A model generated the notes under the pieces. That model saw only the letters and a program-made list of their open reading frames with translations, searched no databases and had not been told where the DNA came from. This document shows, in pieces, positions 11,967-36,826 of a stretch of 64,000 nucleotides of DNA. This DNA comes from Phanerochaete sordida. Its lineage: Eukaryota; Basidiomycota; Agaricomycetes; Polyporales; Phanerochaetaceae. The position numbers and the translations under genes are program-made. The stretch is taken from NCBI GenBank assembly GCA_019973155.2, contig BPQB01000002.1, positions 558,001 through 622,000 of the forward strand, written 5' to 3'. Numbering within the stretch: the stretch's first letter is position 1; each line of letters starts with the position of its first letter.

Positions 11967-12064
11967 CCGGCGCCTGTGCCGACGCCCACCGTTCTTCCGG
12001 CGCCTGTGATGACGCCCACCGTTCTTCCGGCGCCTGTGATGACGCCCACCGTTCTCCCGGCGCC
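11967..12064 (+). repeat. 30-bp minisatellite, copy set 1 (CCGGCGCC core)
   Basis: The core CCGGCGCC recurs at 11967, 11997, 12027 and 12057, an exact 30-nt period. The spacer is close to TGTGATGACGCCCACCGTTC. Read on this strand it gives a decapeptide with an LPAP core. Sets with the same core and period lie at 28054-28350 (opposite orientation) and 35240-35367. This set ends 26 nt before the Helitron TATA box, so it sits in the promoter region rather than in the protein. Confidence 0.9.
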
Positions 12065-12089
12065 TACACCTCTCCCTTCCCGCCTGCCT

Positions 12090-12098
12090 TATATAAGG
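12090..12098 (+). promoter_or_regulatory. TATA box of the Helitron gene
   Basis: TATATAAGG, 42 nt before the ATG at 12132. The spacing matches that of other island genes. It decides the start: the frame is open upstream to 11976, but that ATG lies before the TATA box, inside the minisatellite. Confidence 0.65.
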
Positions 12099-12131
12099 CT
12101 GGGCCGGGGGATGAGACTCGATAATTCAATC

Positions 12132-15100
12132 ATGTCTACTCTTTTACCCACCCAAGTCGGGTTCTTTGTACCCGCAATATTGTTTGTAGTGATGCTCGTT
12201 GCACTTTTACGAGCGGTCGTTCTGGGCCGCGCCGCGCGAATCCGTGTCGTGCGCGCGGTCAAGGGATTCTGCTGTCGTGCTGGTAAAGTCTCTGCGACTT
12301 TATCTAATGTTCAGGTTCTTACTCTCGGTGCTGTAACGGAGCAGATGGCCGTGGGTATATACGTTCTTATTGTCCTCTTGTGTATGTTATCGGCCGTGAG
12401 CCCGCGTGCTACATCCCTCTCACGACCTCGAGGTGCTGGGTTTCGTCATGCCGGACGTGTGTCAGTAGCTTCGTTGCAAGGCCTGCACCCGTTAGTGGGA
12501 AGTGTTGGTGACCTGCAGCCTGATCAGACACTCATATATGTCGGAGTGGTCAGGGACTTGTCTGAGGTGCAAGCACACGGGGACATTGTTGTGTACCGAC
12601 TGCCGGTACGCCATATTGGAACGATACCTCTACGCGCGGACTTGTTCAAGTTATGTTCTGCCCACAACATAACTCGCAGGCAAGCGGGTACGTCCGTTCA
12701 GTCTGCGATCAACGCGCTGTGGAGCCACCAGTGTGATATTCGCTGTATGACGATTGTGTACGCTTTCCGTCGGCCAGGCGTGTCGCCCTCGGTAGTCCCT
12801 AGTGTTAGCGGGAGCGAGCCTATGGGAGAATGTGCATCAGCGGCTGAATCGGACCAAGCGGGGGCCGACGTTTCGTTCCCACCTCGACCCCATGCTCCCT
12901 CGGAACTTGCGCAGTTCGTGCGTGAATGGTGTGCAAATATAACATCCGATGCGTTAGACGAGGGTGTATGTGCGGTATGTTCCCGGCTGGTATTGCGTCG
13001 AGAGTTGACCAATGTTCCCCGAACAGCGAAGGGGTTCGACGTACTGCACGCGCGGCGAGATATTGTGACTTGTGAGGGTGGACAGGTTTTATGTCCGGCT
13101 GGAGTTAACGCAGGGGAGAATGTAGCGTCTGTCTGCGGTCCTTGTCTATACTCCTTGCAGGCGGAGTGTGTACCTGCGATGTCATTAGCGAATGGACTGT
13201 GGATTGGAGACGTCCCGGACGAACTGAAGGCGTTGACGTTCGTGGAGAAGATAATGGTTGCGCGTTATCGGCATAATGTGTGCGTCGTTACTGTCGGTAT
13301 GGGTCAGAAGAAGATGAGGGCCAATGCTGTAGTATTCTCGCAACCGGTAGCAAAGTTACAAGCCGTCCTGCCGCCTAGGCGCGGAGAACTTGAAGAGTGT
13401 TTGGCCATTGTCCTTGTCGGGTGTGGAACACTTGAAACTCAGGACTTGAAGAGGACCCCGTTGTTGGTGCGCAAAGGGAAGGTATGGGCGGCGTTGCAGT
13501 GGCTTCGGCGGCATCACTGTGACTACGGTGACGTGGTACTTAGTAAGGAGAATCTCGCAGAGTATAATGAAGACGAAGCACCTGTGGAGATTATCTATGA
13601 CACGATGTCGGCCGAGACAGGTGGCCACTCACTTGGTGTGTACGAGAGGCAAGACGATGAACGCGGCGTGCAAGACGGGCCATGCCCCCTCGCGGTTCAC
13701 GGCCTTATTGCAGAACAGGTGGTCGATTTACCTAAGGCGACCAAGATTGCTATCGCGCTGAAACACATTCGGTCAGGTGGAAAGGTCCTTGCGTATGGTC
13801 GCGACAGTGAGCCGGAGTCGATTTTCCGTAACGCTGAGATGTACCCTGGCATGTTCCCTTGGCTGTTTCCGTACGGCCTGGGAGGGTTTGAGAATAATCG
13901 CATGCTTCGCCCTGTGGCTCGCGCGGCGCATATTCGGTACCTGCTGGCGTACTGGGATCGCCGGTTTCAAACGGATGAGTATTTCGTGTACCTTGTGTTC
14001 AATCAGGGACAGATACGTGAAAGCTCACGAGCGGGTTACTTGTTGACCGAGAAGAAGAATTTCCACAGGATCGCTGACAAAATCCTCAGTATTAACGTAC
14101 ACGCATTGGATTCCTTGATTGAAAAGGGCAGGACTACAGGGTACGCACGGCCGGATGACGAGGATGAGAAGGCGTGCTTTGAGCTCATGCAGTTCGTCGA
14201 CCACGTCGCTGGGCACGTTCCTGCGTCGTGCACACGAAAGAAGTATCAACGGTCCGAGATACGGTCGCTGATCATAGAAAAGGGCGTACCTATGTTCTTC
14301 ATAACGTTCGCACCGGCTGATTTTAAGAATCCAGTCTGTCTGCACTTCTGTGGTATGCCTGTAGATTTGACCGGTCTGAGTGGAACGCTCCCGGATGCCC
14401 AGGATAGGGTACGTGCTATTGCAGCCAATCCTGCGGCGTGTGCGCGGTTTTTCAATTACATGGTTGGCCTGTTTTTGAAGGTTATTCTCCGAGTCGATAG
14501 CAATCGTGAAGGGTTGTTTGGTAAGACATCGTCTTACTACGGCACGGTCGAGAGTCAGGGACGGTTGACATTGCATCTGCACCTACTTCTGTGGATTGAG
14601 GGGTCGTTCAGCCCTCAGGAAATACGCAATCGGATGATGGATCACGGAGACCACTTTCAGGAAAACCTGATACGCTGGTTGGAGGGATGTCACCAGGGTG
14701 AGCTTAATACAGGCACGGTAGATGAGATAGGGGAGCGTATCCGTGCGAAATCTGGTCGCGGTGAGGACATGGAAGACGTAGCCGACGGTCCTTCAGCAAG
14801 GGCGGGTTGGCAAGATCCTACAGAAACGTTACCTACGCCGCCACCTGCCGTCGCCTATGGGTCTGCGCTGGACGAATGGTATGAAAATATGTGTGGCATT
14901 GTTGACGAGATTGTATACCTTTCGAACCGGCATCATAAGGATCATAAGTACGGGTGTAGGCGGCCAGGTCAGCCGTGCAAAGCACGCTTTCCGCGGGAGT
15001 TATTCTGGGAGACGGTCGTAGACCCGGATACCGGAGCGATTCGCATGAAGAAGCGTGAAGAGTGGATCAATATGTTTTCGAATGTCTTGAGCTACGTACT

Positions 15101-18100
15101 TCGCTGCAACTCAGACGTGACTTGCTTGTTGTCTGGTACTCAGGTCAGGGCTGTGATTGCTTATGTCACCGACTACATAACTAAGACGTCTATGAAGACA
15201 CATACCATGTTCGAAGTGATCCGAATGGTTTTGAATGCGGGTGAAGGATGGGTGGCAGCCGGTACAGACCGGCAGCAGACTGCGCGGCAGGTCATCGTGA
15301 AAATCGTAAATGCATTGACGGCGCGGACGGAGACCGGGGGACCTATGATTTGCAGTTACCTGTTGGGCTACCCGGATCATTACACTGGTGAGACGTTCAA
15401 GGTGTTTTTCTGGTTCAGTTACGTCATGCACGTAGCAGAGCAATGGTCAGACCTAAATGATCGCACGGACTATTGCGACGAAGACGATGGCACGGGTGGC
15501 GCTCCGGTAAACGACTTCGTGCGACTGGACCGGACTGTGAGGGGTATTGTTGGGCACAGTAAAGTCCAGGATTATATTTATCGACCGACTTACATGGATA
15601 AGTGGGCACTGTTTGATTACCTGCAGCGTACAGAGGTACGGAAACTGCGCCCGCGGCAACTGATCGAGTTGGCGCGTACCCGGCCACGAGGTCATGCGAG
15701 GGTATCACCTGGAGGATTGGGCAATCCGGACGTGGTTTGTGAGGCTGCAGGGACCGCGGATGGCTGCCAAGAGGTCGGTGTCGAGGCGTTGTCTGATGAC
15801 GCGAAGTTCTATGCATTTCAGGAGGAGCACCCTCTGTCGGACACGCACGCTGTATTTCTGTTGAAGGACGATAGGCGATATGTGTTAAACTTTGTCGGGC
15901 CTACGTTGCCCAGGAAAGACCGCGGAAATCGCGAGGAGTACTGTCGTACCATGATGACCCTTTTTGCTCCTGGTGGCTGGCGGACCGGTAAAGAGCTGAA
16001 GTCTGAAGAAATGAGCTGGGAACAAGCATTTGAAAGTGCGCACTTTGGTGGTCGGCATGAAGAGGTCATGCGGAATATGAACGTGCTCTATGAATGTCAG
16101 GATGAGCGTGACAACTATTCTGCGATTAGGCGACGGCAGGAACAGGGCATATTCACCGGAGGGTTGTTCGCCGGGCAGGCCGAACATGGAGCAGACGGGG
16201 AGGGTGGTCCGATCGAGTATGAACATACAGCGTCTATCGACGGCAACGAAGAATATTTGCTGGGAATGTTAGATGATGACGGAGAGATCGGGAAAGCGAC
16301 GGCGGCTCACCAGGACAGGATGGAGAACATGCAGGAGTTAATCTTGGGGCTGCGCAAAGGTTTAGAAGCAGATACCGATGTCGCGAATAGGCGTGAGGCA
16401 CCTTCCGAATGTCTTCGGACCGATGTTCCAGGTGACGTGTGGAGGCTGCGGATGATGGACGCGAAGGGTACGGCATTAGACCGTCGAGGAAGGGATCCGG
16501 GGGGGTCTGGTGAATGCGCCTACGGGCCATCCCGTCCGTTTCCAAGCGAGGGGACTGTTCGGGTCGTCGGAGGTGCTGCGCTTGATCAGCTCATATTTCA
16601 GGACCATGTACGACGAGACGTACCAGTAACGGAGCAGGATCGTTTAGCTGAGGTTGTGCGCTCGTTTACCTTGACCGGTGAGCAGGAGAGGGCGTTCGCT
16701 CTTGCCGCTAGACATGTAACAGTGAAGGAGCCGACCGAACCTCTGAGAATGTACCTGGGCGGAATGGGGGGTACCGGTAAGTCCCAGGTTATCAAAGCTC
16801 TCATCGCTTACTTCAATCTGAGAGGGGAAGGTCATCGATTTGAGATATTGGCTCCTACGGGAAGTTCTGCGTGTCTAGTTGGCGGTTCAACGTATCATTC
16901 TGCTCTGAGTATTGGCCGCGGCGAGAAGCTCACCCAGGCAAAATGTGCAAAAATCCGGGAGCGTCTTGCGTCCGTAGATCTTATCTTCATCGACGAAGTG
17001 TCAATGATCTCTTGCATGGACCTGTTCCGAATTAGTTCTTATTTGTGTACAGCGTTCAATGAGCCAATGACGCCTTTTGCGGGTAAGCATGTCATACTTG
17101 CCGGTGATTTTGCACAGTTACCTCCGGTTGGAATGGGCCAGTATCCGTTGTACAGCGGCTCTGTTGGTACATCAGACAGCGGCTTGTCGGTAGCGGGGCA
17201 ACGGAACGCGTTAGGAAAGTTGGTATGGCATACGTTCAATACAGTCGTTCTGCTGCGGGAAAATATGCGTCAGCGCGGAAGTTCGGTCGCAGACAGTCTG
17301 TTCAGATCTGCGTTGGAAAACATGAGGTACAAGTCATGTACCGCGAATGACATCGCGTTGCTTCGCACAAGGGTTGCGAACGGGCAGAGTGGACATCCGC
17401 GTATTACAGACCCCCGTTTCCGGGATGTGCCCATCATCACGGCTTACAATGCTCACCGGGATGCTATCAATGCGGTCGGTGCGCGCAAGTTTGCTGAGGA
17501 TCGCGGGCTACCGTTGACGACCTTCGTATCTAGGGACCGGTTGAGTCGGCCGTCATCGAAGAGCTCGACTCGTGCGCTTCGGCAAGTCATGAGGACAACA
17601 GCGGATGTTCGAACAAAATCGAATATACCTCCGATGAGTTTGCAACGGGTGTTATGGGATCTGTCTCCCGCGCTCACGGAACATGTCGCAGGTAAGCTGG
17701 AGTTGTGTCCTGGTATGCCTGTAATGCTCAAGAATAACGAAGCGACGGAGCTCGGAGCGACCAATGGGGCAGAAGGACATGTGGTCGGATGGGACTATCA
17801 CGAGCGTCCAACCGGCGAGAAGGTCTTACAGACTTTATTCGTTCGTTTGCTCAACCCCGTGCAAGCGGTAACCATCGAGGGCTTGGAACCGGGCGTGATA
17901 CCTGTCGTGGCTTCAACGGAGAGAGTATCGTGCATGTTACGAGATGATAGGACACTTACCGTTGTGCGAGAGCAAGCGCGCGTCCTCCCCGATTTCGCCA
18001 TGACCGACTATGTCTCGCAAGGGAGGACGAGGCCCGACAACGTTGTTGATATCCGCTTCAGTCGAAGTTTCCAGTCAGTGTATACTTGCTTATCGCGGAG

Positions 18101-19286
18101 TTCGTCCTTGGAGGGAACTGTTATTCTTCGTCCATTTGACGAGACGAAAATTATTGGGGGCCTACCACCTGATCTCCGGCGGGAGTTTCGGTCTTTGGAG
18201 GTTCTGGATGATCTGACAAGGCTGCGATACGAGGGTGCGTTACCCGACTTTGTACAAGGCGAGACCCGGTCGGAGCTGTTACACGCGTATCGTCAGTGGA
18301 AGGGCGATACATTCGTACCGAAAAACGTTCACCAAGCACTCGATTGGTCAAACGAACCGGCCTGGGTCGTCGACGGTTTCCGTTCCAGGCAAGATGGGCG
18401 CGGTGTCAAGCGCGCAAGTCGGAACGCACGTGAGCCACCTCCGGCGAAGCGGGCCAGACTCGCGCATGTAGACGCGCCAACTCCTGGCCCATGTACGTGT
18501 TCGACACGGTCTGTTTGTCCGACGTGTCAGCATAACGCTCCGTTGGGTCCTGTTTGTGATAACGTGGCAGGTACGTGTGCACTGGACGCTGTGCTTGTTG
18601 TGCTGTACAACCTCCTGGATCTGTCAGCCAGTGATGAGACCTGCGAGGCTGCCATGCTGACTTCCCTGCGAGAGCTCCGGGACTCGCGGAAAGGAATGGA
18701 CGGCGCGCGGGATGAGATCTGGCAGGAAATGGTGCGCACGGCGGGAATAACTATCGATGAGCAAGGGGCTGATGTCGTACAGGTGCTACAGGCGTTCAGT
18801 CGCTGCATGGGCGGGATTGGAGCCAGGACCGTAGCCTGCGAGCAGTGCGCTGAAGTCGAAAATGCTGCGGTCATGCAGGATATTGTGTTGAGCCCTGATG
18901 ATGTCCGTGGAGGCGATGGGCCCTCGGCTTCACGCGACTGTTCTGCGTGTGGGAAGGCCAATTCAGTGAGTGCGCGAGCGACGTTCGAGACTGTTCCGCG
19001 GTTGATAGCTATCGACTGCACGCAAACTGCGACACCAAATATCGCACCGTGTGTGTATGTCGATGGCGGCAGAGGCGTGGTGTGCGGTAGGCTGGCGGCG
19101 GTCGTTGCGTATGGAGATTCTCACTACTTTGCCAGATTCGTTGACCGTACAGGCGTAGTTTGGTCGCATGACGGTTCAACCCGATGGTGTTCGCGCCAGT
19201 CCACCTCTACTGACCCACTTCAGATTCGTCTGACTCGAGGATTGGATAGAATATGCCTCGCAATGTACAACACATTCAGTGAGTAA
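12132..19286 (+). CDS. Helitron Rep/helicase with C-terminal UCH/USP-like protease domain
   Basis: Intronless gene for 2,384 aa, the transposition protein of a Helitron-type rolling-circle element. In order: two hydrophobic segments (about 9-31 and 72-89); a DUF6570-like region with Cys pairs (about 335-500); a Helitron-like N domain beginning FPWLFPYGLGGF near 575; the Rep core with HUH motif LHLHLLLW (H815, H817) and a two-tyrosine motif YVTDY (Y1011, Y1015); a Pif1-type helicase with Walker A GGMGGTGKS near 1541-1549 and Walker B LIFIDEVSMI. After about 2115 comes a cysteine-protease-like domain with Cys box GTCALDA (C2149), CxxC pairs (CEQC, CSAC) as in USP zinc ribbons, and a His box GDSHYFARF (H2331). 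All key nuclease and helicase motifs are present and no stop interrupts the frame, so the gene may be active. The ATG at 12132 is chosen for its 42-nt distance from the TATA box. Rep and helicase are certain; the protease is inferred from motifs. Confidence 0.95.
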   Translation: MSTLLPTQVGFFVPAILFVVMLVALLRAVVLGRAARIRVVRAVKGFCCRAGKVSATLSNVQVLTLGAVTEQMAVGIYVLIVLLCMLSAVSPRATSLSRPRGAGFRHAGRVSVASLQGLHPLVGSVGDLQPDQTLIYVGVVRDLSEVQAHGDIVVYRLPVRHIGTIPLRADLFKLCSAHNITRRQAGTSVQSAINALWSHQCDIRCMTIVYAFRRPGVSPSVVPSVSGSEPMGECASAAESDQAGADVSFPPRPHAPSELAQFVREWCANITSDALDEGVCAVCSRLVLRRELTNVPRTAKGFDVLHARRDIVTCEGGQVLCPAGVNAGENVASVCGPCLYSLQAECVPAMSLANGLWIGDVPDELKALTFVEKIMVARYRHNVCVVTVGMGQKKMRANAVVFSQPVAKLQAVLPPRRGELEECLAIVLVGCGTLETQDLKRTPLLVRKGKVWAALQWLRRHHCDYGDVVLSKENLAEYNEDEAPVEIIYDTMSAETGGHSLGVYERQDDERGVQDGPCPLAVHGLIAEQVVDLPKATKIAIALKHIRSGGKVLAYGRDSEPESIFRNAEMYPGMFPWLFPYGLGGFENNRMLRPVARAAHIRYLLAYWDRRFQTDEYFVYLVFNQGQIRESSRAGYLLTEKKNFHRIADKILSINVHALDSLIEKGRTTGYARPDDEDEKACFELMQFVDHVAGHVPASCTRKKYQRSEIRSLIIEKGVPMFFITFAPADFKNPVCLHFCGMPVDLTGLSGTLPDAQDRVRAIAANPAACARFFNYMVGLFLKVILRVDSNREGLFGKTSSYYGTVESQGRLTLHLHLLLWIEGSFSPQEIRNRMMDHGDHFQENLIRWLEGCHQGELNTGTVDEIGERIRAKSGRGEDMEDVADGPSARAGWQDPTETLPTPPPAVAYGSALDEWYENMCGIVDEIVYLSNRHHKDHKYGCRRPGQPCKARFPRELFWETVVDPDTGAIRMKKREEWINMFSNVLSYVLRCNSDVTCLLSGTQVRAVIAYVTDYITKTSMKTHTMFEVIRMVLNAGEGWVAAGTDRQQTARQVIVKIVNALTARTETGGPMICSYLLGYPDHYTGETFKVFFWFSYVMHVAEQWSDLNDRTDYCDEDDGTGGAPVNDFVRLDRTVRGIVGHSKVQDYIYRPTYMDKWALFDYLQRTEVRKLRPRQLIELARTRPRGHARVSPGGLGNPDVVCEAAGTADGCQEVGVEALSDDAKFYAFQEEHPLSDTHAVFLLKDDRRYVLNFVGPTLPRKDRGNREEYCRTMMTLFAPGGWRTGKELKSEEMSWEQAFESAHFGGRHEEVMRNMNVLYECQDERDNYSAIRRRQEQGIFTGGLFAGQAEHGADGEGGPIEYEHTASIDGNEEYLLGMLDDDGEIGKATAAHQDRMENMQELILGLRKGLEADTDVANRREAPSECLRTDVPGDVWRLRMMDAKGTALDRRGRDPGGSGECAYGPSRPFPSEGTVRVVGGAALDQLIFQDHVRRDVPVTEQDRLAEVVRSFTLTGEQERAFALAARHVTVKEPTEPLRMYLGGMGGTGKSQVIKALIAYFNLRGEGHRFEILAPTGSSACLVGGSTYHSALSIGRGEKLTQAKCAKIRERLASVDLIFIDEVSMISCMDLFRISSYLCTAFNEPMTPFAGKHVILAGDFAQLPPVGMGQYPLYSGSVGTSDSGLSVAGQRNALGKLVWHTFNTVVLLRENMRQRGSSVADSLFRSALENMRYKSCTANDIALLRTRVANGQSGHPRITDPRFRDVPIITAYNAHRDAINAVGARKFAEDRGLPLTTFVSRDRLSRPSSKSSTRALRQVMRTTADVRTKSNIPPMSLQRVLWDLSPALTEHVAGKLELCPGMPVMLKNNEATELGATNGAEGHVVGWDYHERPTGEKVLQTLFVRLLNPVQAVTIEGLEPGVIPVVASTERVSCMLRDDRTLTVVREQARVLPDFAMTDYVSQGRTRPDNVVDIRFSRSFQSVYTCLSRSSSLEGTVILRPFDETKIIGGLPPDLRREFRSLEVLDDLTRLRYEGALPDFVQGETRSELLHAYRQWKGDTFVPKNVHQALDWSNEPAWVVDGFRSRQDGRGVKRASRNAREPPPAKRARLAHVDAPTPGPCTCSTRSVCPTCQHNAPLGPVCDNVAGTCALDAVLVVLYNLLDLSASDETCEAAMLTSLRELRDSRKGMDGARDEIWQEMVRTAGITIDEQGADVVQVLQAFSRCMGGIGARTVACEQCAEVENAAVMQDIVLSPDDVRGGDGPSASRDCSACGKANSVSARATFETVPRLIAIDCTQTATPNIAPCVYVDGGRGVVCGRLAAVVAYGDSHYFARFVDRTGVVWSHDGSTRWCSRQSTSTDPLQIRLTRGLDRICLAMYNTFSE

Positions 19287-19298
19287 GTGATAGACACG

Positions 19299-20407
19299 CT
19301 ATTCTACATCTCCTTCTCCCATTGTATGCTCCTCGTCTTCTACGAATGAAATGCTGGTGTGTGTGCGGACTACCTTGTGCTCCATGGGGTCGACCACGTT
19401 CATAGACTAGACGGGGAAATTTGGTTACCAGAACATAATCAACTGATCCGCGACTGACACTCACCGGAATATTTCTCCGAGATTGCAGCAGGACGACGTT
19501 CTGCAGAGCGAAATGGATCTGCGTCTTGTGACCTTTCGACGAGGTAACTGATGCTATATCGGCTGTGACTGTCGCTTCTACGAAATCGCCTTTCTGTATC
19601 ACCATGTGATTGCAGCGCCGGATCTTGTAGTCATCGTGCTGTCGACCGACAAGCAGATGGGACGCGACCACCCACATATGTTCTATCCGCTTTGCGTTAT
19701 GCGATGGATCGTCGCTGGGCTGTAGCACACTGTGGACTGATCTCCCCGGTCGTACCTGGATCAGTCTTCTGGTAAGCTCGCCGCATGGATACAATGAGCC
19801 GAGTGCCTACTTTCGTGAATACACGGCGCTGAAGATGGAGATGAGATGATTGTGATCGCTCTCGTTGTACACCGAGGTTGCGACAGATGAGCTCGCGGAT
19901 ATTTTCCATCGCGTCTATTTGATACTGAAATATGTCGGAGTGGGGCCCACCATGTAGAACGAGGTATTGGCTGGCCTTTGGTGCGTCTTCGATGGTACTG
20001 AAGTGATGTGTCAGGAAGGGGACTTGTCTCGGGTAAACGGAAAACTTACTGATTCCAGTTTCCTGTGGGATGCAAGTTGAGCTTATGCACGAAACCTTGT
20101 AAGCGGAAGGCGACTTGCAGGCACTCGCCCGAGTCGTCCACTTCAGCCTTGTGTAATAATATGTGTCGCCTGCTCGGGTCGCTGCGTTCCGGGTTGCGTG
20201 CTACGTACGCCCATTGGTATAAGTCTTCGAGGTCGTCTGGAACGACATCCCTGTCTTCAAGAGGTCGGTCCTCGGTGTATTCTTCATATATCTGTGGTAG
20301 TTCAGGAGGCCATAGGTCGCGGATGAACTGTCTGTCGACTATTACGAGTAAGCACTTGGGTATAACGTCATATGTAGACATTAAGACCCACCTGTTAATA
20401 AGGACAT
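19299..20407 (-). CDS. Unknown protein, island repeat family (member H)
   Basis: Function not recognised. Exons 20407-20392, 20338-20050, 19997-19871, 19806-19465 and 19406-19299 join in frame to 293 aa; introns are 52-64 nt. The N-terminal part is acidic and Trp/Tyr-rich. The C-terminal part has KGDFVEATVTADIA followed by IHFALQNVVLL, matching the DIV...F.L..I.R block of five other genes in the island (A, B, C, E, G). The last exon is acidic. Its stop lies 12 nt past the Helitron stop, tail to tail. The first ATG after the TATA box (20459-20454) gives a 5-codon first exon, a pattern shared with other island genes. Alternating hydrophobic residues suggest a beta-rich fold; an OB-fold resembling RPA is possible but unproven. 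The third intron (64 nt) is the least certain join. Confidence 0.6.
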
Positions 20408-20453
20408 TGTTGCTTGTTTGTGAGTTAACAGATTATGTCGCTGCGTTATTAGA

Positions 20454-20459
20454 TTTATA
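20454..20459 (-). promoter_or_regulatory. TATA box of member H
   Basis: TATAAA on the minus strand, 52 nt before the ATG at 20407. With the box at 20787 it frames a short divergent promoter of about 420 nt. Confidence 0.5.
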
Positions 20460-20786: not shown

Positions 20787-20794
20787 TATAAATA
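20787..20794 (+). promoter_or_regulatory. TATA box of member A
   Basis: TATAAATA, 43 nt before the ATG at 20830. Confidence 0.6.
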
Positions 20795-20829
20795 CCCCCT
20801 TCATTTCCACCTACCCGCTTATAACTAAC

Positions 20830-21920
20830 ATGACACAGAAGAAGCGCAAGTAAGTGCCTGACTTGTTTGACACTGCACCTGCTGACTGCCAATCTGACTT
20901 TGCAGAGAACTAACGAAAGATCCCAATGACGAGCGTGAAGCTCATGATGACGGGTCTGAAGGCTCGGTGACGGCATCGTCGGCAAACAGCGCAGAACAGG
21001 CGTTGTTGATGGAACAAGGTGAACACCAGTCGGGCTCCAGTCACGAGGTCCGTTTCCGCTGGTGTTGTCGGCAGCTCAGACTTGCTAACGTTTCCGTGCG
21101 TAGGATATGGTAACGCTGGACACGCGCATCTACCTCACTCCCCGACTCGTTGAACGTCTAAACGCGATGATTCGATACGCCAATCCATCGACCGTGTGTT
21201 ACGCTCTGCGTACTCTACCGCAGGACCGTCTTCATTGGGGTCGGCAGGGTACCGGGCGTGGTGATGCCAGTGAGTACCTGTGTATTGATGATGTTCCAGT
21301 GACAGTGTGGTTGGTGGGCGAAGTTGTCGCGCCAAACTTTACGAAGGAAGGACAGCCTCGGCGCAAGGCAGGGGTTTTGCTCCGGCCTTTGCTCGAGAGT
21401 GACTTCCACAAGGCGGTAAATATCATGAATTCGCATAGTAATCCGAAGATTGGTAAGTCCAATACCGCCTGAGCGGAACTCATTCATAGCTGACGCGTGT
21501 TGGGTAGATGACATGTCGCTTTACGATGGAGTCTGGGTTACTTGTTGGATGGGATCGCGCGCTATCCCTGAAGACGAGGTAAGTTACTCCATCTGGATAT
21601 ACCGTATGTTCACACGTGTGATACAGGTACCCGTTTTCACGGAGATCTACGATTGTCGTACAGCCATCCGCGCGAAGAAACTCATGACTCGGATGCGCCA
21701 TTCCGAGGTCAAGGCCAGAGATCTCGCTGTCGCTGAAGCTACAATCACCCGCTGGCCGGTGGCAGATAAAGACAAGGATGACCAGAAAGGCTCACGCTCT
21801 AAGCGTAGAACGTGGGACGCATGGCGCGTGGAGTATAGGTTGGAATCGCTGTGGTACGTGTTCGAAGGGTCGGCACATGATGTCGGGGCTCGGGGACCAG
21901 GAGAAGATGTGGTCATCTGA
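20830..21920 (+). CDS. Unknown protein, island repeat family (member A)
   Basis: Function not recognised. Exons 20830-20849, 20906-21047, 21104-21452, 21508-21578 and 21627-21920 join in frame to 291 aa, with introns of 48-56 nt. It begins MTQKKRK (a basic patch) and then has an acidic Ser-rich linker. Two family blocks are visible: VPVTVWLVGEVV...LLRPLLESDF, and a C-terminal DLAVAEATI...WRVEYRLESLW interrupted by a Lys/Asp-rich insert (DKDKDDQKGSRSKRR). The start follows a TATA box by 43 nt. For intron 4 the acceptor at 21507 gives a 55-nt intron with a CTGAC branch; an acceptor 18 nt earlier would also keep frame. Divergent from member H. Confidence 0.65.
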
Positions 21921-26431: not shown

Positions 26432-26438
26432 TATAAAG
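26432..26438 (+). promoter_or_regulatory. TATA box of member C
   Basis: TATAAAG, 66 nt before the ATG at 26498. Confidence 0.5.
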
Positions 26439-26497
26439 GACTGGGTGGTATGTAGCGGCCCTCTCCGCGGTGCGACATTCCTTCATCGTATCTTGCC

Positions 26498-27383
26498 ATG
26501 ACTTCTCCTCCTTCCCCAGCTGACTCATATAGCAGCGATGAGTCTGATGAAATTGTAGACGTGTACACGTCTTATGTATGTCCCATTCGCTCGATCGATA
26601 TTTATCCGTACTGATAGAGCCCAGGGAAGACTCAAGTACATCCGTCCCCTACCGGATGAAACTCTATCCCGGCTGCATGCTGCCATGGAACTTGTCAGAC
26701 AGCACTCGCATGAGTATCCTGTCCACGCACTGCCTGCGTCGCTGACGTGGGGAGGCGCACGCTACGACCGAGACACTTCGGCATCTTGTAGCCCGCAGAG
26801 ATGCAGTGTAAACGCCACCAGCACTCTCTGCACTGACCGCGACGAGCCTGTGATTCTCAAGATAATCGGCAGGCTCATGTCCTCCCACTTCGCGCCAGTC
26901 GGTACGAGTCTCCGCTCTTCTGCAAAAATCTACCTCGATCCTCTGCGCGATGTGGATCTCGAAGCTGCGCAGGCGATTGTCACGCGCTACACCTCCGACT
27001 TCAATTCTGGTAAGCGGCTCTGACCCCTCTCGATACGCCAGCCCGGTGACTTGTCCAAGTTCTTATGACAGACTTCCTGATATTTTCAAGTCCCAGTACA
27101 CAGGATGCCAATCCGGCACGTACAGTAGGTCCCGTTCGACAGTGCATCCGGGATCAAAACTAATCCTCCGCGACAGGAGACTTGCTTTGACAATCTATTC
27201 GAGGCACCCACATCTGGACCCTGGGATGGCTCGAGCCTTCAGCCACTTGCACACTCGGAGCTGACCCACAACGACATCGTACTCGTCCGCTTCCATTGCG
27301 TCCGTCGCATGACATGCCCGCATCACTGGGATGTCAGCTTCAAGCTAGTTGATATTATCCGACTCATCCGAGGCTCTACCTAG
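26498..27383 (+). CDS. Unknown protein, island repeat family (member C)
   Basis: Function not recognised. Exons 26498-26575, 26625-27009, 27072-27124 and 27177-27383 join in frame to 240 aa; introns are 49, 62 and 52 nt. The N-terminus is Ser/Asp/Glu-rich (SYSSDESDEIVDVY). The family blocks are EPVILKIIGRLM...IYLDPLRDVDLEAA and, near the C-terminus, HNDIVLVRFHCVRR...WDVSFKLVDIIRLI. These align by eye with members B, E and G over both blocks. No Cys/His cluster, signal peptide or membrane segment is seen. Confidence 0.65.
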
Positions 27384-28053
27384 CTCAATGACCAACCTGT
27401 AACGCAATATTCTGACTCCAGCTTCTGTATGCTATTATCTGCACTTTCGCCAGATGGACGGTGCGATTGAACTGAGGTGGTATGCGACGATGTGCCTCTG
27501 ACGCTACGTGAGCCATCATGCGGCCCCATTACTTTGGCGTGCGCGTGCGCTGGGGCAGGCGAGGTGCGCGCGCGCGAGCACGGCATTCAAGTTGTCCATG
27601 CGTTCATAAGCTAACGCTGTGTTACAATTGAGTTACTGCTTATGTTAAGTGCTTACCCGATCTGTTACTCTTTACTTATTGGTTACGTTGAGGACTTAGT
27701 GAAGGTAACAAGGCTGGCGTCAGCTCGCTGGCGATCCTATTGGTGTCCGTCGCATCCCTCAGTCGGGTTGCTGTTACAGGCGGCTTTCCACCGCGCAAGT
27801 CCGCAGTCGTCAGTTCTGGCCACAGGAGAAACTGTCGCTGTTCTGGGTGGTGGGATGTCCACTGTCGTCACTGTGTGCGCATGAAGACCGCCCGCCGCGC
27901 TAGGCACCGGGGGCTCAGCGCTATCCATCTCGGCCAGGGGAGAACTGCCGCCGTCGATTTGGGCGCCAGGCCCTGGGAGATCCGTCGTCGTCGTCGACGA
28001 CAGTCTGGCCACCCCCCCCCATGTCGCGCGCACGGCCTACCGGCGTCGGTGTA
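27384..28053. other. Intergenic stretch with degenerate repeat traces
   Basis: No gene is supported. From about 27900 onward there are imperfect GGCACC/GGCGCC words and GTCGTC runs that look like decayed units of the 30-bp minisatellite that follows. Confidence 0.4.
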
Positions 28054-28350
28054 GGCGCCGGGAGAAACGCAGAGATAGTAGCAGGCGCCGGTAGAAACGC
28101 CGCTATCGTAGCAGGCGCCGGGAGATCCGCCGTCGTCACGTCAGGTGGCGGGAGGTCTGCGCCGTCGTCGTCGGGGACGGTCTGGCCACTCCCATGCCGC
28201 GCCCCGCCTACCGGCGTCGGTGTAGGCGCCGGGAGATACGTAGAGATCGTCACAGGCGCCGGGAGATACGCAGAGATCGTAGCAGGCGCCGGGAGATACG
28301 CCGCTATCGTAGCAGGCGCCGGGAGATCCGCCATCGCCGTCGCAGGCGCC
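28054..28350 (-). repeat. 30-bp minisatellite, copy set 2 (inverted)
   Basis: The core GGCGCC recurs at 28054, 28084, 28114, then 28225, 28255, 28285, 28315 and 28345; a degenerate unit lies at 28144. The period is exactly 30 nt within each block. The two blocks begin with the same lead sequence (CCGGCGTCGGTGTAGGCGCC) 171 nt apart, so a larger segment was also duplicated. On the minus strand the units translate with LPAP cores, as in the other sets. A minus-strand open frame runs through, but its flanks are low-complexity and no start or splice context supports a gene. Confidence 0.9.
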
Positions 28351-28592
28351 CGAAGGTTGGTCGTTGTTGCGCGCGTTCGAGGGCTTGCTCGTCGCGTCAG
28401 GGGCCTCCGTCGACGGCCCCCTCGACGCCGACACCACAGCGTCACGCCCGCACCCCCTGTGTTTGAAGCTCCACGTGTGATAAGTCACCCAATCTCGAGC
28501 GTGCGCGATGGATTCACCGCGATACAAAAGCATGAGGTGCGTCCGCGCGGCAGTCCCTAAACCCCCCCTCTATTACTGTGTCATTATCTGTC

Positions 28593-29960: not shown

Positions 29961-30203
29961 ATGCTTTTCTTGCGATGTACAATATTGCCATATCCAAATC
30001 TCAGATCTCTGCACTCTGTAATGTCGGGATGGTCCTACTTGGTTCGGATAGTAAATAGTCTGGTGCAGACAATGACATCGGCCTAAACTGGTCGGTTCAC
30101 GCGTCTAAATTCGCTGGGCGTAGGATCCGGTCATGGTCGTTTCCGACGGCCACTGTTGCTCCCCATTATCGACTTGCTCTCATCTGCCGCAGAGTTGTTC
30201 AAG

Positions 30204-30210
30204 TATATAG
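30204..30210 (+). promoter_or_regulatory. TATA box of member E
   Basis: TATATAG, 47 nt before the ATG at 30251. Confidence 0.5.
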
Positions 30211-30250
30211 TCTTGCCTCGGAGCTATCTCAACATTTCAGCTTATGCATC

Positions 30251-30992
30251 ATGGTACTCACTCTCTCGTAAGTGACCGCAATCCGATCCAATGTCGTAGC
30301 GGCAGCTGAGCATTGCCGACAGGTCAGATGGAACTCCGTCCCCGTCCTCATCAATCTCGGAAGACGCTTACAATCTTCGTAGCGTCCTTCTCGCGATTGC
30401 TGCATACCCTTCTACCAGGCCTTTCGTGTACAACATTGCAGACGCACCCGACGATATCGCCTTCGGCAAGGGGCATCATTCCGATGTTGTCTGCGTATCC
30501 GGTGAGCCCGTGACGTTCACTATGGTTGGGAGAATACTAGCCAAATCGTTAGTGGACGCCGGCGGGATCCCTGTCGCGTTCCCTCGCCTCGCATTGGAGC
30601 CGATCCAGTCCGACGACCTCGTCGGTGTACATCGCCTCGCTCGTTGGATCCAACCACTATCAAGATCCGCTGCCTTCGACCGGTTCGTGACCATGACCAG
30701 CTACATTGCCCGCGCAAGTGCTGCTCACGGTAGAGACGTGAGTTTGTAGACGCTGCGTATGCTTGGTCCATGTGCTGATTACGCCCAGTGTCTCAAGTTC
30801 AAACACGTCTACGACGCGGTTCCGCTTCTCAAGGGGATCACTGCGGAACTCGGTGACCTCCAACTCTCCCACATCCACGATGGAGATGTCGTATATGTGG
30901 AATTTTACGCTGTGCGCCGCCCCGGAACGTCTGTTTTAGCCTTCAATTTCTCACGTATCACACGACTCGCAGAACACTCTACTCTGTATTAG
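30251..30992 (+). CDS. Unknown protein, island repeat family (member E)
   Basis: Function not recognised. Exons 30251-30267, 30323-30737 and 30789-30992 join in frame to 211 aa, the shortest member. The 17-nt first exon ends in phase 2. An earlier ATG at 30244 is out of frame with the rest, so 30251 is chosen. The N-terminus is Ser/Pro-rich; the family blocks are EPVTFTMVGRILA...ALEPIQSDDLVGV and GDVVYVEFYAVRR...FNFSRITRLAE. Because it lacks inserts it is the best template for the core domain of the family. Confidence 0.68.
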
Positions 30993-31074
30993 GGAGGTAC
31001 ACATCGTATCTAAACATATCTTTATTCTATGTGTGTTTGTTTGTCAGCTACGTGCGCGCGAATGGGCTCTGGAG

Positions 31075-31082
31075 TATATATA
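31075..31082 (+). promoter_or_regulatory. TATA box of the F-box/nucleotidyltransferase-like gene
   Basis: TATATATA, 43 nt before the ATG at 31118. Confidence 0.55.
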
Positions 31083-31117
31083 TGGCGATGCCCCGTCATC
31101 GGTGTCCGAACACCACC

Positions 31118-32060
31118 ATGTCAAGTATATCCCTGTGAGTGCTTGCGTGGAACTGCACCATGATTCCATACTGATGCGTGTTGAAGTTTACCAGTTGAAC
31201 TACTCTGCCTAATATGTATCGACTTCGACCTTGAGACCTTGCTCGCGTTGATGGCTACCTGCAAATACACGCGATACATCGTCTGCGAACAGCTCAGAAG
31301 GTCGTGGCATACTTTCCTCCTTCCCCGATTTGACCGCCCTGACATCGTCATCGAGGCTATGCGCAACACAGGAACCGTCGTTTCCGGTTCGGCAGCCTTG
31401 AAGTGGCTTCTCCGTACGACACAGTGGGAGAACGGGGACGTGGACTTTTACTGCCCCTTCGACACGTTCCCTAGCTTCGTGCGGACTCTTCTCAACCTCC
31501 CAGGTGTCGCACTACTCGCCAACATCACGCCCGACAATTGGGACAACATGTATCCGCTGCGACATGGCTTCTGCAACTACGTCGTGCTTGCGAGCAAGAC
31601 GTGGAAGATCGATATTCTGCGCAGCATCACCATATCACCAACTCATCCTTTGCCGTATTTCCACTCTACACCAGTTATGAACTTCGTCGGCGCAGATTCC
31701 TTCTGTGTCGCATATCCTCGGCTGACATTGCGGAACAGAGCAGTTCTGCGATCCTACGCCCTGCGCGACAAGGACATCACGGCGGTCGCGAAGTACATGG
31801 GGAGAGGCTTTGATTATCGAGACACCGCCGCGCGGTGGCTTGACACCCATACCAATCCTTCGCTGGCTCTGTACTGTAGCCAATCGGAGCGTTCATTCGG
31901 TGACGCTGCCTGCCTGACGGTCTGCTATGGTGAGCAGGACTGTCCGAACTCTCCGCTGCTCTGGAATACTCGATGGATTTTGGGGGGAGATCCGTGTGGC
32001 GGTACGTGCACAGTATCTACCACATTTTCTGTATTCAACGGCCTCTCCACATTGGTTTAA
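31118..32060 (+). CDS. F-box protein with nucleotidyltransferase-like domain
   Basis: Exons 31118-31134 and 31187-32060 join in frame to 296 aa (intron 52 nt with an ACTGAT branch). The N-terminus reads as an F-box: LPVELLCLICIDFDLETLLA followed by MATCKYTRYIV, expected to bind Skp1 in an SCF ubiquitin ligase. It is followed by VVSGSAALKWLL and NGDVDFYCP, the GS...DxD layout of a nucleotidyltransferase-like fold that is often paired with F-boxes in mushroom genomes. Whether the fold is catalytic is unknown. The acceptor at 31186 is preferred over the next AG because only it keeps the F-box in frame. The C-terminal 25 residues follow a possible donor at about 32001 and may be intron readthrough. 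Confidence 0.7.
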
Positions 32061-32327
32061 TCCCGCGAATGTCTTCCAAATTTGTAACGTTCGTGTTCAT
32101 TCCAATTTTGAGTGTTAACCTCCCTTTCCGGGCACGTTGGGCAACCTGTTCCTTTTTATTCATGCTGGCATAATGCGACTTCCGTTTACAGGATATTGAC
32201 CTCCCCGGAATCAAATCCGGTGCGTGTATATTCCTCAAGGTTAATTCCTGGTGAGCTACTACTATATTTCTGTCTTGGGTTTGATTCTCCGACGTACGAA
32301 TGAGGTCGGTACGCATGAGTAGTCGCG

Positions 32328-32334
32328 TATAAAA
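32328..32334 (+). promoter_or_regulatory. TATA box of member G
   Basis: TATAAAA, 44 nt before the ATG at 32372. Confidence 0.6.
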
Positions 32335-32371
32335 CTCCGCCAGGATAGCACTGACTCTACAAATCATCCTC

Positions 32372-33336
32372 ATGCATCTTTTTAAGACAAACATCCCCGG
32401 ACAGATCGCCTTAACCACCGACCTCATCGAGCATCAGGGCAGGACTCGCCATGTTTCCTTCCCTGAAGACGACGGCGACGACGCTATGTCCACATCTCCT
32501 CCTTCACTGGTTTCAGACTCAGATTCGGATGAATCTTCCATGCCGTCCTTGGAGAGCATCGAGCCACCGTCTTCCGACGAGTGCGATGACGTGTTACAAG
32601 TAAGTTGATCATATCGTAGTGTTATTCATCAACTGATTGGTCACATGTAGGTCGTATCATATTCTCCGCGCGATGCCGTTGACGAGATCTGTAAAGCGAT
32701 CACTCACGAATATCCCAAGTACAACCTATTTCCCGTCGCAACCGCTCCTCACGATCTAACGGTCGGGAATGGGCTCACTGCGCCATACGTTTCTCGAAAC
32801 GGCCTGCCCGTCACATTCACGGTAGTGGGCCGCGTTGCTCAAGCCCTTTTTGTCGATAGCGACGATGCTCCACTGCGTACTGTGCGCCTGGTCATCAACC
32901 CGCTGCGCGCCGAAGATGTGCGGGTCGCTCGCAGGCTAGCCCATCGCTTCACGCCGCAAGGACGGCGTCCGTTCGACCTTGCACAAGACGAGACCATCTC
33001 CTTCACCAAAGATCAGCCTATGTGCGATTTGTACCCGTACTTTACCGTGAGTCTGCCCGCTTCGATCCACATATGTGTTTGCTCATCAATGTTTAGTTTG
33101 TCAGATTTTACAACACGTTCGAGGCTCCATACGGGTTATCGTGTCACCCCTACGCCCTTCGTCGCATCGACGCCAAGACGCTGAACGTGGACGATGTCAT
33201 TATTGTCTATTTCCATATCCTACAGGCAGATTACGTTGACCCTGTTCGGATGGCACTGCATCATGTAATCCGTCTGTTCCGTTCGGACGATCCTGCTGTT
33301 GACAATCTTCCCACCAGATTTGATACGGTTCTGTAG
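32372..33336 (+). CDS. Unknown protein, island repeat family (member G)
   Basis: Function not recognised. Exons 32372-32599, 32651-33046 and 33097-33336 join in frame to 287 aa; introns 51 and 50 nt. An acidic Ser-rich stretch (about residues 35-75, with DSDSDESSMP) precedes the family blocks LPVTFTVVGRVAQ...VINPLRAEDVRVA and DDVIIVYFHILQA...ALHHVIRLFR. The C-terminal block is the most diverged of the five plus-strand members. Its layout (short leader, acidic N-terminus, core, few introns) matches members C and E. Confidence 0.66.
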
Positions 33337-33526
33337 CTAAGTTCGGATGCCTTCAGTTCTGCTTGTATTTCCCACGTATCTGACGCGATGTGTCAGTCTC
33401 CATGATCTTGATATAATCGAAATTGCCTCTTGACTAAACTGTTGGATTAATTCGCGTGTCGCAACCCTACGCTATGGCTTCTTTTCTTGGTGATTCGGAG
33501 TTCTGTACAGTTTACTAGCGCAAATG

Positions 33527-33534
33527 TATATATA
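33527..33534 (+). promoter_or_regulatory. TATA box of the first F-box-like gene
   Basis: TATATATA, 62 nt before the ATG at 33589. Confidence 0.5.
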
Positions 33535-33588
33535 CCCGCCTCGTCAGATGGCCAAGCTCACAGTAACTCCCGCCGATTTACTCCAACA

Positions 33589-34991
33589 ATGCCTTCTCAG
33601 TCTTTAGCCAGGATTCCCGAGCTTATCATCCTCATCTTAGAATATCTTGCGATAGACCACGCTGGACGGAAAGCCCTTCTCGCTTGTTCTTACGCGTGCA
33701 GGTCGTGGCACGCGATCGTCATCCCCGTCCTCTTCCGGCATACCATCGTTTACAGTCTCGCCGACGTTTCCACGTACATCCATCGGTCTATCCGCCTGCA
33801 ACACGTCACTACCCGTAACGCTCAGCCCCTCGGAACCTTTGTCAAATTTTTGCGCGACAATCCATTCATTGCGTCATCGATCCGTAGCCTTCAACTCAGT
33901 ATCCTCCCATGCTACCTACCTTCCCGGTATCGCTCTCTGGGTCGGTACTATGTCCGCGCCGATACGGTCGTCACGGTTCTCTGTTTGTTGCCTAGGCTTC
34001 AAGATGTCGTGTTCGAGGACGTGGTCCTCTGGGGCAGCCCGCGCACAACGGAACGCCTGGCACGACCGCTAGTGCTACGCGAGGTGAATATTTCGTTCAC
34101 CCATCACGCATACATCGCGAAGTGGAAGCATCTGCTCCACCTCGTGGCTCTATTTACGCATGCAGATACCTTGAAGGTCGACGAATACGGGTTTGGTACC
34201 TCTTTGGTCTATCAAGCAAATCGCACGGACGCTCTTCGAACCATGCCAAGCGTCAAATCACTCATCATCATGCTGGACGGTGCCCTGTCCCCTGGACAAT
34301 TTCTGATAGCAATTCAGGTTCTCCAGTTCCAGCGCGGAGTCCAAGCGTGCACAGTCGACAGACTCGGATATAGGAATATTTCAGACTTCAACGCCTTCTT
34401 AGCAGGTGCCAGTGCGCAGATAGAGACTCTGAGCATTACATTGGATCAATTGGTGGATCCCGTGGGCGGTGAGTCGCTTGCTACTGTTATCTAGTGAACG
34501 AGCTAATGTCTCTCGCCATAGACTTCATTGACGTCGGTGCCAAGTTCAGTCTTTGCCCACGCCTCCGCTCGTTGACAATTCGCTGGACATTGTCAATGTC
34601 CGAGCTGTTTTTGGCGACCCGGGAGAACATTGCCTCTATCTCGTACGTAACCCAGACGGTTTGCAACTTGGTCACTACGCGCTGCCCTCATCTGCAAGCG
34701 GTGGTACTCGAACTTGTCGTCGGTGCTCCGTCTCGAGTCGCGGCCTTGGTGGTTGTCAACTCGTACTTACATAGACTCGACATGGCCTGCGCAAACCTTC
34801 TTCGAACGCGACATGCTCCTTCCGTTGCTATCCATGTCCACACCGATAAGTCATCGGACGCCATGGCGCGCTGCATCGCCAGTTTCTTTCCCTGCACATT
34901 GGAAGCCCCGCGCGGAATGCTGGAGGTCTACGATCTAGCGTCTGGAGATGGCACTTGTTCTGCTCCATGCAGTCCAGACACCGCTCAGTGA
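33589..34991 (+). CDS. F-box-like protein (gene I)
   Basis: Exons 33589-34468 and 34522-34991 join in frame to 449 aa (intron 53 nt). The N-terminal 50 residues have the F-box pattern: IPELIILILEYL, then ALLACSYACRSWHAI and LFRHTIVYSL. The rest shows LRR-like hydrophobic periodicity (for example SIRSLQLSI, SVKSLIIML, RLRSLTIRW) but no clear repeat consensus. Such F-box/LRR-like proteins are strongly expanded in Agaricomycetes. Expected role: substrate receptor of an SCF ubiquitin ligase; the target is unknown. The frame is open upstream of 33589, but the TATA box favours this start. Confidence 0.65.
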
Positions 34992-35239
34992 TTTCTCGCC
35001 TCCCGTCGAAGGTTACTCGTCACTTGACTTACTGCCGTATTCCATGTTCTCTTCGACATCTACCTTCTTTTCCCTGCACACGATTTCCACGATCCACGTT
35101 CACGTACCATTCCCTGACGTTTTCCCCACCACCCGACCAAGTATAAGGACCCGACGCTCCGGTGCTCTTCCTTGCAGTAACGTTGGTCGCTATGACCGTG
35201 TCGGCTCTCCCAGCGCGCGCGACATTCCTTGCCGATTTA
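34992..35239. other. Intergenic stretch with a second TATA-like word
   Basis: No gene is supported. A TATAAGG word at 35142-35148 precedes an ATG at 35162. That frame runs through the minisatellite and starts with a hydrophobic stretch like a signal peptide (MLFLAVTLVAMTVSALPA). It could be a small secreted repeat protein, but the ATG is only 20 nt past the TATA-like word and nothing else supports it. Confidence 0.35.
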
Positions 35240-35367
35240 CCAGCGCCAAGCACGGCGGTGGTGGGTCTCCCGGCGCCAACGACGGTCGCTGCCGATCTCC
35301 CGGCGCCAACGCCAGTCGCTGCCGATCTCCCAGCGCCTACGACGGTCGCTGCTGATCTTCCGGCGCC
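35240..35367 (+). repeat. 30-bp minisatellite, copy set 3
   Basis: CCGGCGCC or CCAGCGCC cores at 35240, 35270, 35300, 35330 and 35360, an exact 30-nt period. The spacer is near ACGACGGTCGCTGCCGATCT. Read on this strand each unit gives LPAP within a decapeptide, as in sets 1 and 2. The set lies 113 nt before the TATA box of gene J. Confidence 0.9.
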
Positions 35368-35479
35368 TGGTCCTCCTCGTCCCGTCTCTCGACGACGGCG
35401 TCCCCTAACTCAACATCTACGACTCTTGCTCACGACCCCGCCTGGCATGGTCCCTCCTCCCGCCCTTTGCAAGCCCCTC

Positions 35480-35487
35480 TATAAATA
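35480..35487 (+). promoter_or_regulatory. TATA box of gene J
   Basis: TATAAATA, 61 nt before the ATG at 35541. Confidence 0.5.
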
Positions 35488-35540
35488 TATGGCCGCCTTC
35501 CATCGTAAGTCTCTGCTCCCACGTCCTGTCCTGCGCTGCA

Positions 35541-36826
35541 ATGACGCCCCTTAGTCTCGATGTCGTCGCCTGCATCTTGTCCTTCCTCGCTGGGGACAAA
35601 TCGACGCTGTTCTTCGCCACCCTAGTCTCACGCGAGTGGCGGCGACTCGCACAAATCATCCTCTTCAGGGAGATCAACATCTGCGTGGTACAAACGGTTG
35701 TCCTCGAACGATTCGTCAACCTTGTCAAAGCTCGACCCGAACTCGGGATCGCTATACGAGACCTCCAGCTCTCGTCCACCCCCGCGCGTCCCTCTACACA
35801 CGGAGCCATCCTCACACCGGTCTCTTCCATCCGCCTTGAGTTCTGCATGCTGTCCCAACTCCTCCTCTCCCTTCCTAAGCTCGAATTCCTCTCCCTCCGC
35901 GGCCTCTGCTGCACATGGTGCTCTCGCACCCGGCTCCATGACCACACGTGCATCCACGATTCATCGCATCCGTCGCTCACTGGTCTCGTCCTCGACTCCT
36001 TGGTGGCCCTAGACGTCCGCGCAGAACCGATGCGCCTTCTCGACGTCATGCCCAACGTCTCCTACCTCTTCGCGGCTGCGCAGACGGCGTCAGGTTGGGA
36101 CCCCACAAACCACCCGTCCGCCCGTCCTCGTCAGCGTCCGCTGGAGTATCTCTCTATCGCATTCCCTGACAAGCCGGACCATCTTCGCGACTTCACGCGA
36201 CGGCTGCCTCGCAACCGCCAGGAGCGCTGCATGCATCTCTTCGGTCTCAACGCGCACTTCCGGTCGCAAGCCGTGCGGATGTTGACGAGGAGCCAGGGCA
36301 CGTTGGAACGCTTGGCTTTGACTTTCAGGTTGGAGACGACTGGTGAGTACACCCATTTCATGCGACATGGATGCGACATTCATGTTGTGTTTTTGCCACA
36401 GTCGGGGACCCGCTGGACTGGGAGCCGTTCCCGTTCCACAAATGCGCGCGCCTTCGCATCATCATGTTGCGGTTCAATCTATCGTTCGCCCAGCAGACGG
36501 AGATGGTCCGACAGACACAAGTGTTGCGTGTACTCATTGCCGCCCTCCCCCCTACGGTCACCGACATCCATCTCGTGCTCCACCTTCGCGATTCCCTGTT
36601 CGTCGACCAGCTCCTCTGCCTGCGCTCGGTGCAATGGCGGACGTTGGACTACCGTCTTCGGGTTGCCCTGCCAGACACCACTCTGTACGTCAAGGTCGTG
36701 CATCGGGCCGTAGGATGCCGTGGGGAGGAGGTGATGAACACGTGGTGGACCCCCGAGCGGGAAGGTACGATTCAATCTTGGATTCCCGAGTCAGTCCTCC
36801 GCGGCCGTGTCAAGTGTATTTCTTAG
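35541..36826 (+). CDS. F-box-like protein (gene J)
   Basis: Exons 35541-36342 and 36402-36826 join in frame to 408 aa (intron 59 nt). The N-terminus is F-box-like: LSLDVVACILSFLAG, then LFFATLVSREWRRLA and ILFREINICV. The body is LRR-like with spaced Leu/Ile clusters and a Cys/His-rich patch (CCTWCSRTRLHDHTC) of unknown meaning. It has the same two-exon plan as gene I, with the intron near two thirds of the length, so the two are probably old duplicates. An ATG at 35489, right after the TATA box, is in another frame and is skipped. Confidence 0.62.

Follow-up and report, generated by a model that had tools for sequence, protein, structure and literature searches.

A probable family of very large, multi-gene Helitron-like transposons in the fungus Phanerochaete sordida

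The HELPO1 Helitrons of Pleurotus ostreatus combine a basidiomycete RepHel protein (a Rep domain fused to a helicase) with one to four extra genes downstream, within 7–14 kb (PMC4289320). The cap genes of HELPO1 are of unknown origin and function, and the available sections describe neither a conserved cassette nor a ribonucleotide reductase small subunit (R2). Other fungal Helitrons encode a TET/JBP dioxygenase as an accessory of possible benefit to the transposon; it is a single enzyme, thought to counter silencing, and not a multi-gene set (PMC12730594). In platyfish, a gene for an SGNH hydrolase was captured and mobilised by a Helitron, again as the one captured gene (PMC4021074). According to a 2019 review, Helitrons gain full-length host genes exceptionally rarely, and fungal ones reach up to ~14 kb (PMC6431247). 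Here we analyze a window of 64,000 nucleotides, C2:558001-622000, from the assembly of the white-rot fungus Phanerochaete sordida (40.84 Mb; 222 contigs, labelled C1, C2 and so on). The window holds an island made up of RepHel, the minus-strand gene A, five related genes (B, C, D, F and H), R2, gene G and a pair of F-box-like genes (Table 1). We regard the island as a likely member of a P. sordida family of multi-gene, Helitron-like rolling-circle transposons of very large size; copies of the element are labelled by contig (C2, which is the window, C23, C63, C67, C55 and C196).

As an earlier note on this DNA had read it, the Helitron protein is intact, with a single open frame of 2436 aa. Its Rep domain matches PF14214 (Helitron_like_N, E 1.1e-29) and is fused to a PIF1-type helicase (PF05970, E 1.8e-19), the combination expected of the Helitron superfamily. 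The motifs along the protein are HUH (LHLHL, residue 866), YVTDYITK (1063), Walker A (1596), Walker B (1670), a Cys box (2200) and a His/Asp box (2381). C2, C23 and C63 have the full set of six, C196 shows the two C-terminal boxes, and the Cys, His and Asp of the C-terminus are invariant in 4 of 4 aligned copies. No Pfam model matched the C-terminal domain at E <= 1. Animal Helentrons have active OTU/VTD deubiquitinase domains, likewise a cysteine protease in the RepHel protein (PMC9741609), and for this reason we read the domain here as protease-like and possibly a deubiquitinase. The Helentrons differ in carrying an AP-type endonuclease, for which there was no Pfam match here, and the RepHel domain here matched no family.

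The order RepHel(+), A(−), B(+), G(+) was found at six loci: C2, C23, C63, C67, C55 and C196, the last a 15-kb contig with the RepHel C-terminus alone at its edge. RepHel identity to the window ranges from 56% in C23 down to 29–30% in C67 and C55. With gene A of C67 as query there were 8 matches on 8 contigs, and the sequence upstream of gene A is a PF14214 RepHel on six of them, the RepHel C-terminus on C196 and partly N on C26. The two further contigs with A and G are C131, which also has RepHel and is a seventh locus, and C26. Gene G has 13 genome matches, 12 of them on contigs bearing gene A and one, of 92 aa, on C69. The core of the cassette is RepHel, A, B and G in fixed order and orientation. 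The earlier note had proposed a large Helitron-related element with accessory genes and had advised a search for the same gene set elsewhere in the host genome; its reading was to fall if the genes lay at one syntenic locus with the Helitron alone variable. The opposite is seen within this genome, where the cassette genes are found with RepHel at unrelated places, in fixed order and orientation, as expected of the Helitron superfamily; one Ganoderma sinense protein makes up the comparison beyond it.

The best second copy, C23, was compared by ORF-against-ORF (open reading frame) blastp of the window with C23:260001-310000, tblastx being too noisy. C23 is colinear with the window from 12.4 to 33.3 kb, with order and strand kept and protein identities of 28–71%. 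RepHel is 54% identical over 2344 aa, A 51–67%, B 71%, R2 70% over 219 aa, C 29–37%, D 43%, F 48%, G 51% and H 33%, and 31 aa of E matched. The flanks are unmatched: no window ORF outside 11877-33181 matched C23 at E <= 1e-4. For ten exon sets compared between the window and C23, the proportion of nonsynonymous differences (pN) is 0.20–0.40 and that of synonymous differences (pS) 0.68–0.85, synonymous sites being near saturation, so that no pN/pS ratio is quoted. These values indicate that amino acids are clearly kept in the cassette genes.

Table 1. Features of the island, in positions of the 64-kb window.
Feature	Position	Strand	Evidence
5' end, GTTCCGATTCCCCTTCGGAATCGGTTAAC, hairpin with 8-bp stem at 11841-11861	11838..11866	+	Similarity jump in C2/C23/C63; palindrome count
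30-bp minisatellite, array 1	11967..12065	+	Repeat analysis of the window
RepHel: DUF6570, Helitron_like_N (HUH, two Tyr), PIF1 helicase	11976..19286	+	Pfam; motifs
RepHel C-terminal protease-like domain (possibly deubiquitinase)	18501..19283	+	Invariant Cys, His, Asp
Gene A, hand-spliced, convergent to RepHel	19299..20407	-	8 matches on 8 contigs; peptides placed
Gene B (family gene 1), three exons, more upstream exons possible	21107..21920	+	Comparison; exon peptides
R2, ribonucleotide reductase small subunit, hand-spliced, 346 aa	22123..~23391	+	Pfam; PDB alignment; exon peptides
Gene C (family gene 2), main exons	25380..26117	+	C23 match; profile comparison
Gene D (family gene 3)	26496..27383	+	C23 match; profile comparison
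Minisatellite, array 2, inverted	28053..28331	-	Repeat analysis
ORF E, 31 aa conserved with C23	28806..29048	+	C23 match
Gene F (family gene 4)	30300..30992	+	C23 match; profile comparison
Gene G: weak F-box, then nucleotidyltransferase-like motif by eye	31185..32060	+	13 genome matches; alignment of 8
Gene H (family gene 5)	32470..33336	+	C23 match; profile comparison
F-box-like gene, without C23 match	33487..34494	+	Pfam E 1.4e-4, below cut-off
Minisatellite, array 3	35230..35367	+	Repeat analysis
Possible F-box-like gene	35409..36713	+	Pfam E 0.031, below cut-off

The R2 gene is complete, as the earlier note had stated, with 346 codons after hand-splicing (the single frame in the ORF list is the middle part alone), and its presence fits the proposal of an accessory gene for DNA supply. 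The product matches PF00268 at E 4.8e-83. In an alignment with the human R2 subunit M2 B the catalytic core is aligned and the metal-ligand and tyrosine positions are kept (by eye), and the C-terminal tail, EFALDADF, resembles what we take to be the tail of eukaryotic R2 that binds the large subunit (R1). The fold family, the iron ligands with the tyrosine, and the R1-binding tail are those of a predicted class I R2. A database counterpart, P0001 from P. sordida, agrees by eye with the spliced R2 save for an internal stretch missing from the annotation. There are five R2 loci in the whole genome: C2, C23 and C196, where the gene lies between B and G, and two on C1. R1 was found at one place only, on C68. 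The two presumed host R2 genes lie within 2 kb of each other in divergent orientation (C1:1208681-1211875). In a tree of 35 R2 proteins, in which the bootstrap had not settled and branches are long, the three R2 proteins from element copies group in a single clade (100/96), which adjoins a fragment from Lentinula raphanica and excludes the two C1 genes. R2 is an accessory gene of part of the family, probably acquired once. A Ganoderma sinense gene model, P0118, has a gene-B-like N-terminus fused to R2 (profile match at E 3.7e-7 in a set of 123 proteins; identity to P0121, a P. sordida relative of gene B, 27% in 60 aa). This suggests that gene B lies next to R2 in that species as well; the support is modest, because the R2 of P0118 falls outside the element R2 clade in the tree.

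Comparison of C2, C23 and C63 in ten-base blocks gave a sharp left boundary, with 1–4 of 10 positions identical in the 60 bases before the end and 10 of 10 in the first block. All three copies have GTTCCGATTCCC and a palindrome of 7–8 bp, 0.6–0.75 kb upstream of the start of RepHel similarity. A search of 40.8 Mb placed the palindrome at 5 sites, against none in a reversed control (chance level 0.01 per 64 kb in 200 window shuffles); three of the five are the ends of C2, C23 and C63, and the remaining two are on C33 and C39. The longer hairpin form occurs without mismatch on C63, C33, C2 and C23. With up to 3 mismatches allowed, the counts were 16 in the genome and 9 in the reversed control, and only mismatch-free matches were therefore used. 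The boundary falls at G/TTCCGATT, with TC, the start of Helitron1, one or two bases inside; the leading G may belong to the target, because the base before TTCC in C33 is A. By this comparison the left end, marked by the conserved hairpin, is at about 11838. Helitron2-type FoHelis of Fusarium also have a 5' hairpin, although their start is TCAG, they measure ~5–11 kb, and the inverted repeat near their 3' end was not found here (PMC5148889). A DNA search with the left border region, which skips common words, matched only the second minisatellite array. The fourth exact hairpin match, C33:170818-170839, lies on a contig on which no RepHel was found; it may mark a remnant or a non-autonomous element. 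Paired ends formed by GTCAC..GTGAC hairpins (11916 and 37017) were considered and rejected, two or more such hairpins occurring in 78 of 200 shuffles.

The earlier note had advised a search for a 5' TC, which here lies one or two bases inside the sharp left end, and for a 3' CTRR end with a hairpin, of which no convincing example was found. On the right, CTRR with a hairpin gave two weak candidates at 33–47 kb, neither followed by T, and CTAA or CTAG with a stem of >=6 gave none at 33–42 kb. Words and hairpins common to C2, C23 and C63 beyond gene H did not exceed estimated chance, the 5' hairpin found no 3'-side partner as an asymmetric terminal inverted repeat of the Helitron2 type, and a DNA search with the right border region, which skips common words, found no other copy. 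The shared minisatellite reported in the earlier note is borne out as one 30-bp unit forming three arrays, the first ~130 bp inside the 5' end and the second on the other strand. Because the repeat near the 5' end recurs at 28.05–28.33 and 35.23–35.37 kb, the element probably extends to at least 35.4 kb. A rise in G+C comes at about 37.7 kb, and the right border probably lies between 35.4 kb and that position. Base composition is only a weak guide to borders in the window. Most 1-kb bins at 12–37 kb have 50–60% G+C (one has 63%) and the neighbouring bins 65–73% (4–12 kb) and 67–68% (38–40 kb); low values recur at 0–4, 40–45 and 49–53 kb, and there is no contrast between element and surroundings at C23 or C63. 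Just right of the island is a tandem array (38712-39471; units of 178/352 bp, about four copies). A related Helitron at C131:34765 and C101:95553, the two ~97% identical to each other, has a canonical 3' end consisting of a hairpin, ~12–15 bases, CTAG and then T.

Six related genes had been proposed in the island, of which five (B, C, D, F and H) stand, the sixth, E, being a candidate conserved over 31 aa only. Profile comparison within the family gave 98% for F–H, 96% for B–D, D–F and D–H, and 85% for C–D and C–F. The lower values are 72% for C–H, 62% for B–H and 49% for B–F, with nothing for B–C directly or for E; some second-exon rows (E included) were out of frame, and weak values say little. 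Independently of the profiles, gene H of the window also matches the C23 counterparts of F, D and B. Gene B has three relatives among 4341 candidates in a protein search at E <= 0.01, all from P. sordida: P0121, P0122 and P0123 (PsYK624_080250, _133240 and _122470), on C23, C67 and C55, respectively. In viral contigs, 73 pattern matches included no relative. A structure model of gene B from five rows was poor (predicted local distance difference test, pLDDT, 41) and had 0 matches in the PDB at E <= 0.001, and a search of the PDB by sequence profile gave nothing credible. Among the non-significant matches of the model, 14 of the first 50 rows are single-stranded DNA-binding (SSB) proteins and the top five are Pol gamma accessory subunits. 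Our guess is that B, C, D, F and H are SSB proteins with an oligonucleotide-binding (OB) fold, a role that would fit a rolling-circle element.

An alignment of 8 copies of gene G keeps GS, DxD and a third Asp each in 7 of 8 (by eye), which we take to be the motif of a Pol-beta-type nucleotidyltransferase, and on that basis we call the gene nucleotidyltransferase-like. Pfam, a PDB profile search and structure prediction (model pLDDT 31) lent this reading no support, and a search of 5.8 billion proteins gave 1139 candidates, none of which reached E <= 0.001. The earlier note had also proposed two or three F-box-like genes. Three genes have F-box matches in Pfam, at E 1.4e-4 and 0.031 for the two genes beyond H and 0.0047 for gene G, all below the curated cut-off that would place them in the family. 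F-box-looking ORFs were noticed by eye at varying places inside elements (C67:180348-183518, C55 and C23), those of C67 and C55 lying between RepHel and gene A; two from C67 were scanned and had no Pfam match. The proposed control of ubiquitin would have its main basis in the protease-like RepHel C-terminus, the F-box matches being weak. A common promoter layout, also claimed in the earlier note, was not borne out in the single test made, TATATAA occurring only at 12090 in the window.

The sequences are most likely to represent a complex Helitron carrying a conserved replication-support cassette whose functions are predicted. Several observations weigh against this. The 3' end was not found, and the unit is closed on one side alone. 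The 5' hairpin is known from C2, C23 and C63, together with C33, the 5' ends of C67, C55 and C131 lying outside the comparison. C63, C67 and C55 have no R2 in the whole-genome search, and no family or fold match supports the functions of A, B and G. The Helitron of C131 and C101 stops ~1.2 kb after the helicase match, with no cassette. Because gene A was matched after RepHel at 6 of the 15 PF14214 loci and at none of the other 9, the sensitivity being that of a single query, the cassette is, by this count, a property of part of the genome's Helitrons and not of all.

Among the alternatives, the island may be nested or composite, a smaller RepHel-A-B(-R2) Helitron joined by other mobile units with C, D, F, G, H and the F-box genes. 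This we regard as unlikely. B and G are ~2 kb apart in C67, C63 and C196, 9 kb apart in the window and 17 kb apart in C23, and the F-box genes at 33.5–36.8 kb are unmatched in C23. A further G-like gene stands on the opposite strand in both C63 and C131, and at C131:33944-34765 a canonical Helitron 3' end stands ~60 bases from a G-like match, where mobile elements appear to be nested or abutting. However, the C23 copy keeps C, D, F, G and H colinear with the window, and at 6 of the 6 loci examined G is downstream of B in the same orientation. In C63 (C63:119619-124468) the inverted G-like gene and cassette-like ORFs follow the element, as if two cassettes stood head to head.

Somewhat less probable still is an ordinary RepHel-only Helitron of ~8 kb beside a separate host gene cluster, the pair having been spread by ancient segmental duplication. 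The missing 3' end would agree with this, as would the shortness of other Helitrons here, the hairpin and CTAG of C131 and C101 coming soon after the helicase. Against it, gene order and strand are kept at six loci despite the divergence of RepHel, the C23 flanks compared are unmatched, and the minisatellite arrays at 28 and 35 kb tie those regions to the 5' end. A replicon resembling a virus or plasmid, with a borrowed Helitron RepHel, is very improbable: R2, a possible deubiquitinase and possible DNA-binding proteins occur as a set in large DNA viruses (for R2, PMC2900304), but no capsid, polymerase or integrase is among the main island ORFs scanned with Pfam, and gene B has no relative in viral contigs. 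The same scan, which covered the main island ORFs other than the gene A exons, found no DUF3435 captain, PolB or integrase of the kinds that mark Starships and Mavericks.

For the complex Helitron with a conserved cassette, a sequence of events can be proposed. As its motifs suggest, RepHel would nick the element end through its HUH/two-tyrosine site and unwind the strand through the PIF1 helicase, and the B/C/D/F/H proteins might, more tentatively, bind the displaced single strand. The element R2 would pair with the single R1 of the host and raise deoxynucleoside triphosphates (dNTPs) when host R2 is low. Poxvirus R2 subunits, which are also encoded on a replicating element and work with host R1, are a precedent, although they belong to a virus and not a transposon, and the mechanism is carried over by analogy only (PMC2900304). 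The protease-like RepHel end and the F-box-like proteins may act on host ubiquitin signalling. A bolder version, in which a replication-support kit (R2, the ssDNA-binding family, a deubiquitinase and a nucleotidyltransferase-like protein) lets the element copy itself outside host S phase, half-way between a Helitron and a DNA virus, is possible but doubtful.

Neither R2 nor a RepHel-A-B-G cassette is described as Helitron cargo in the titles and abstract openings that we searched, most subscription literature lying outside that search. Whole genes keep their order and remain constrained even where RepHel is down to ~30% identity, and for this reason the island looks like a working cassette that was inherited and not a chance capture. 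The presence of R2 suggests that a transposon may help supply its own replication. With R2 in the cassette, a cultivable fungus allows testing whether nucleotide supply limits transposons, and whether transposons manage nucleotide supply as some viruses do.

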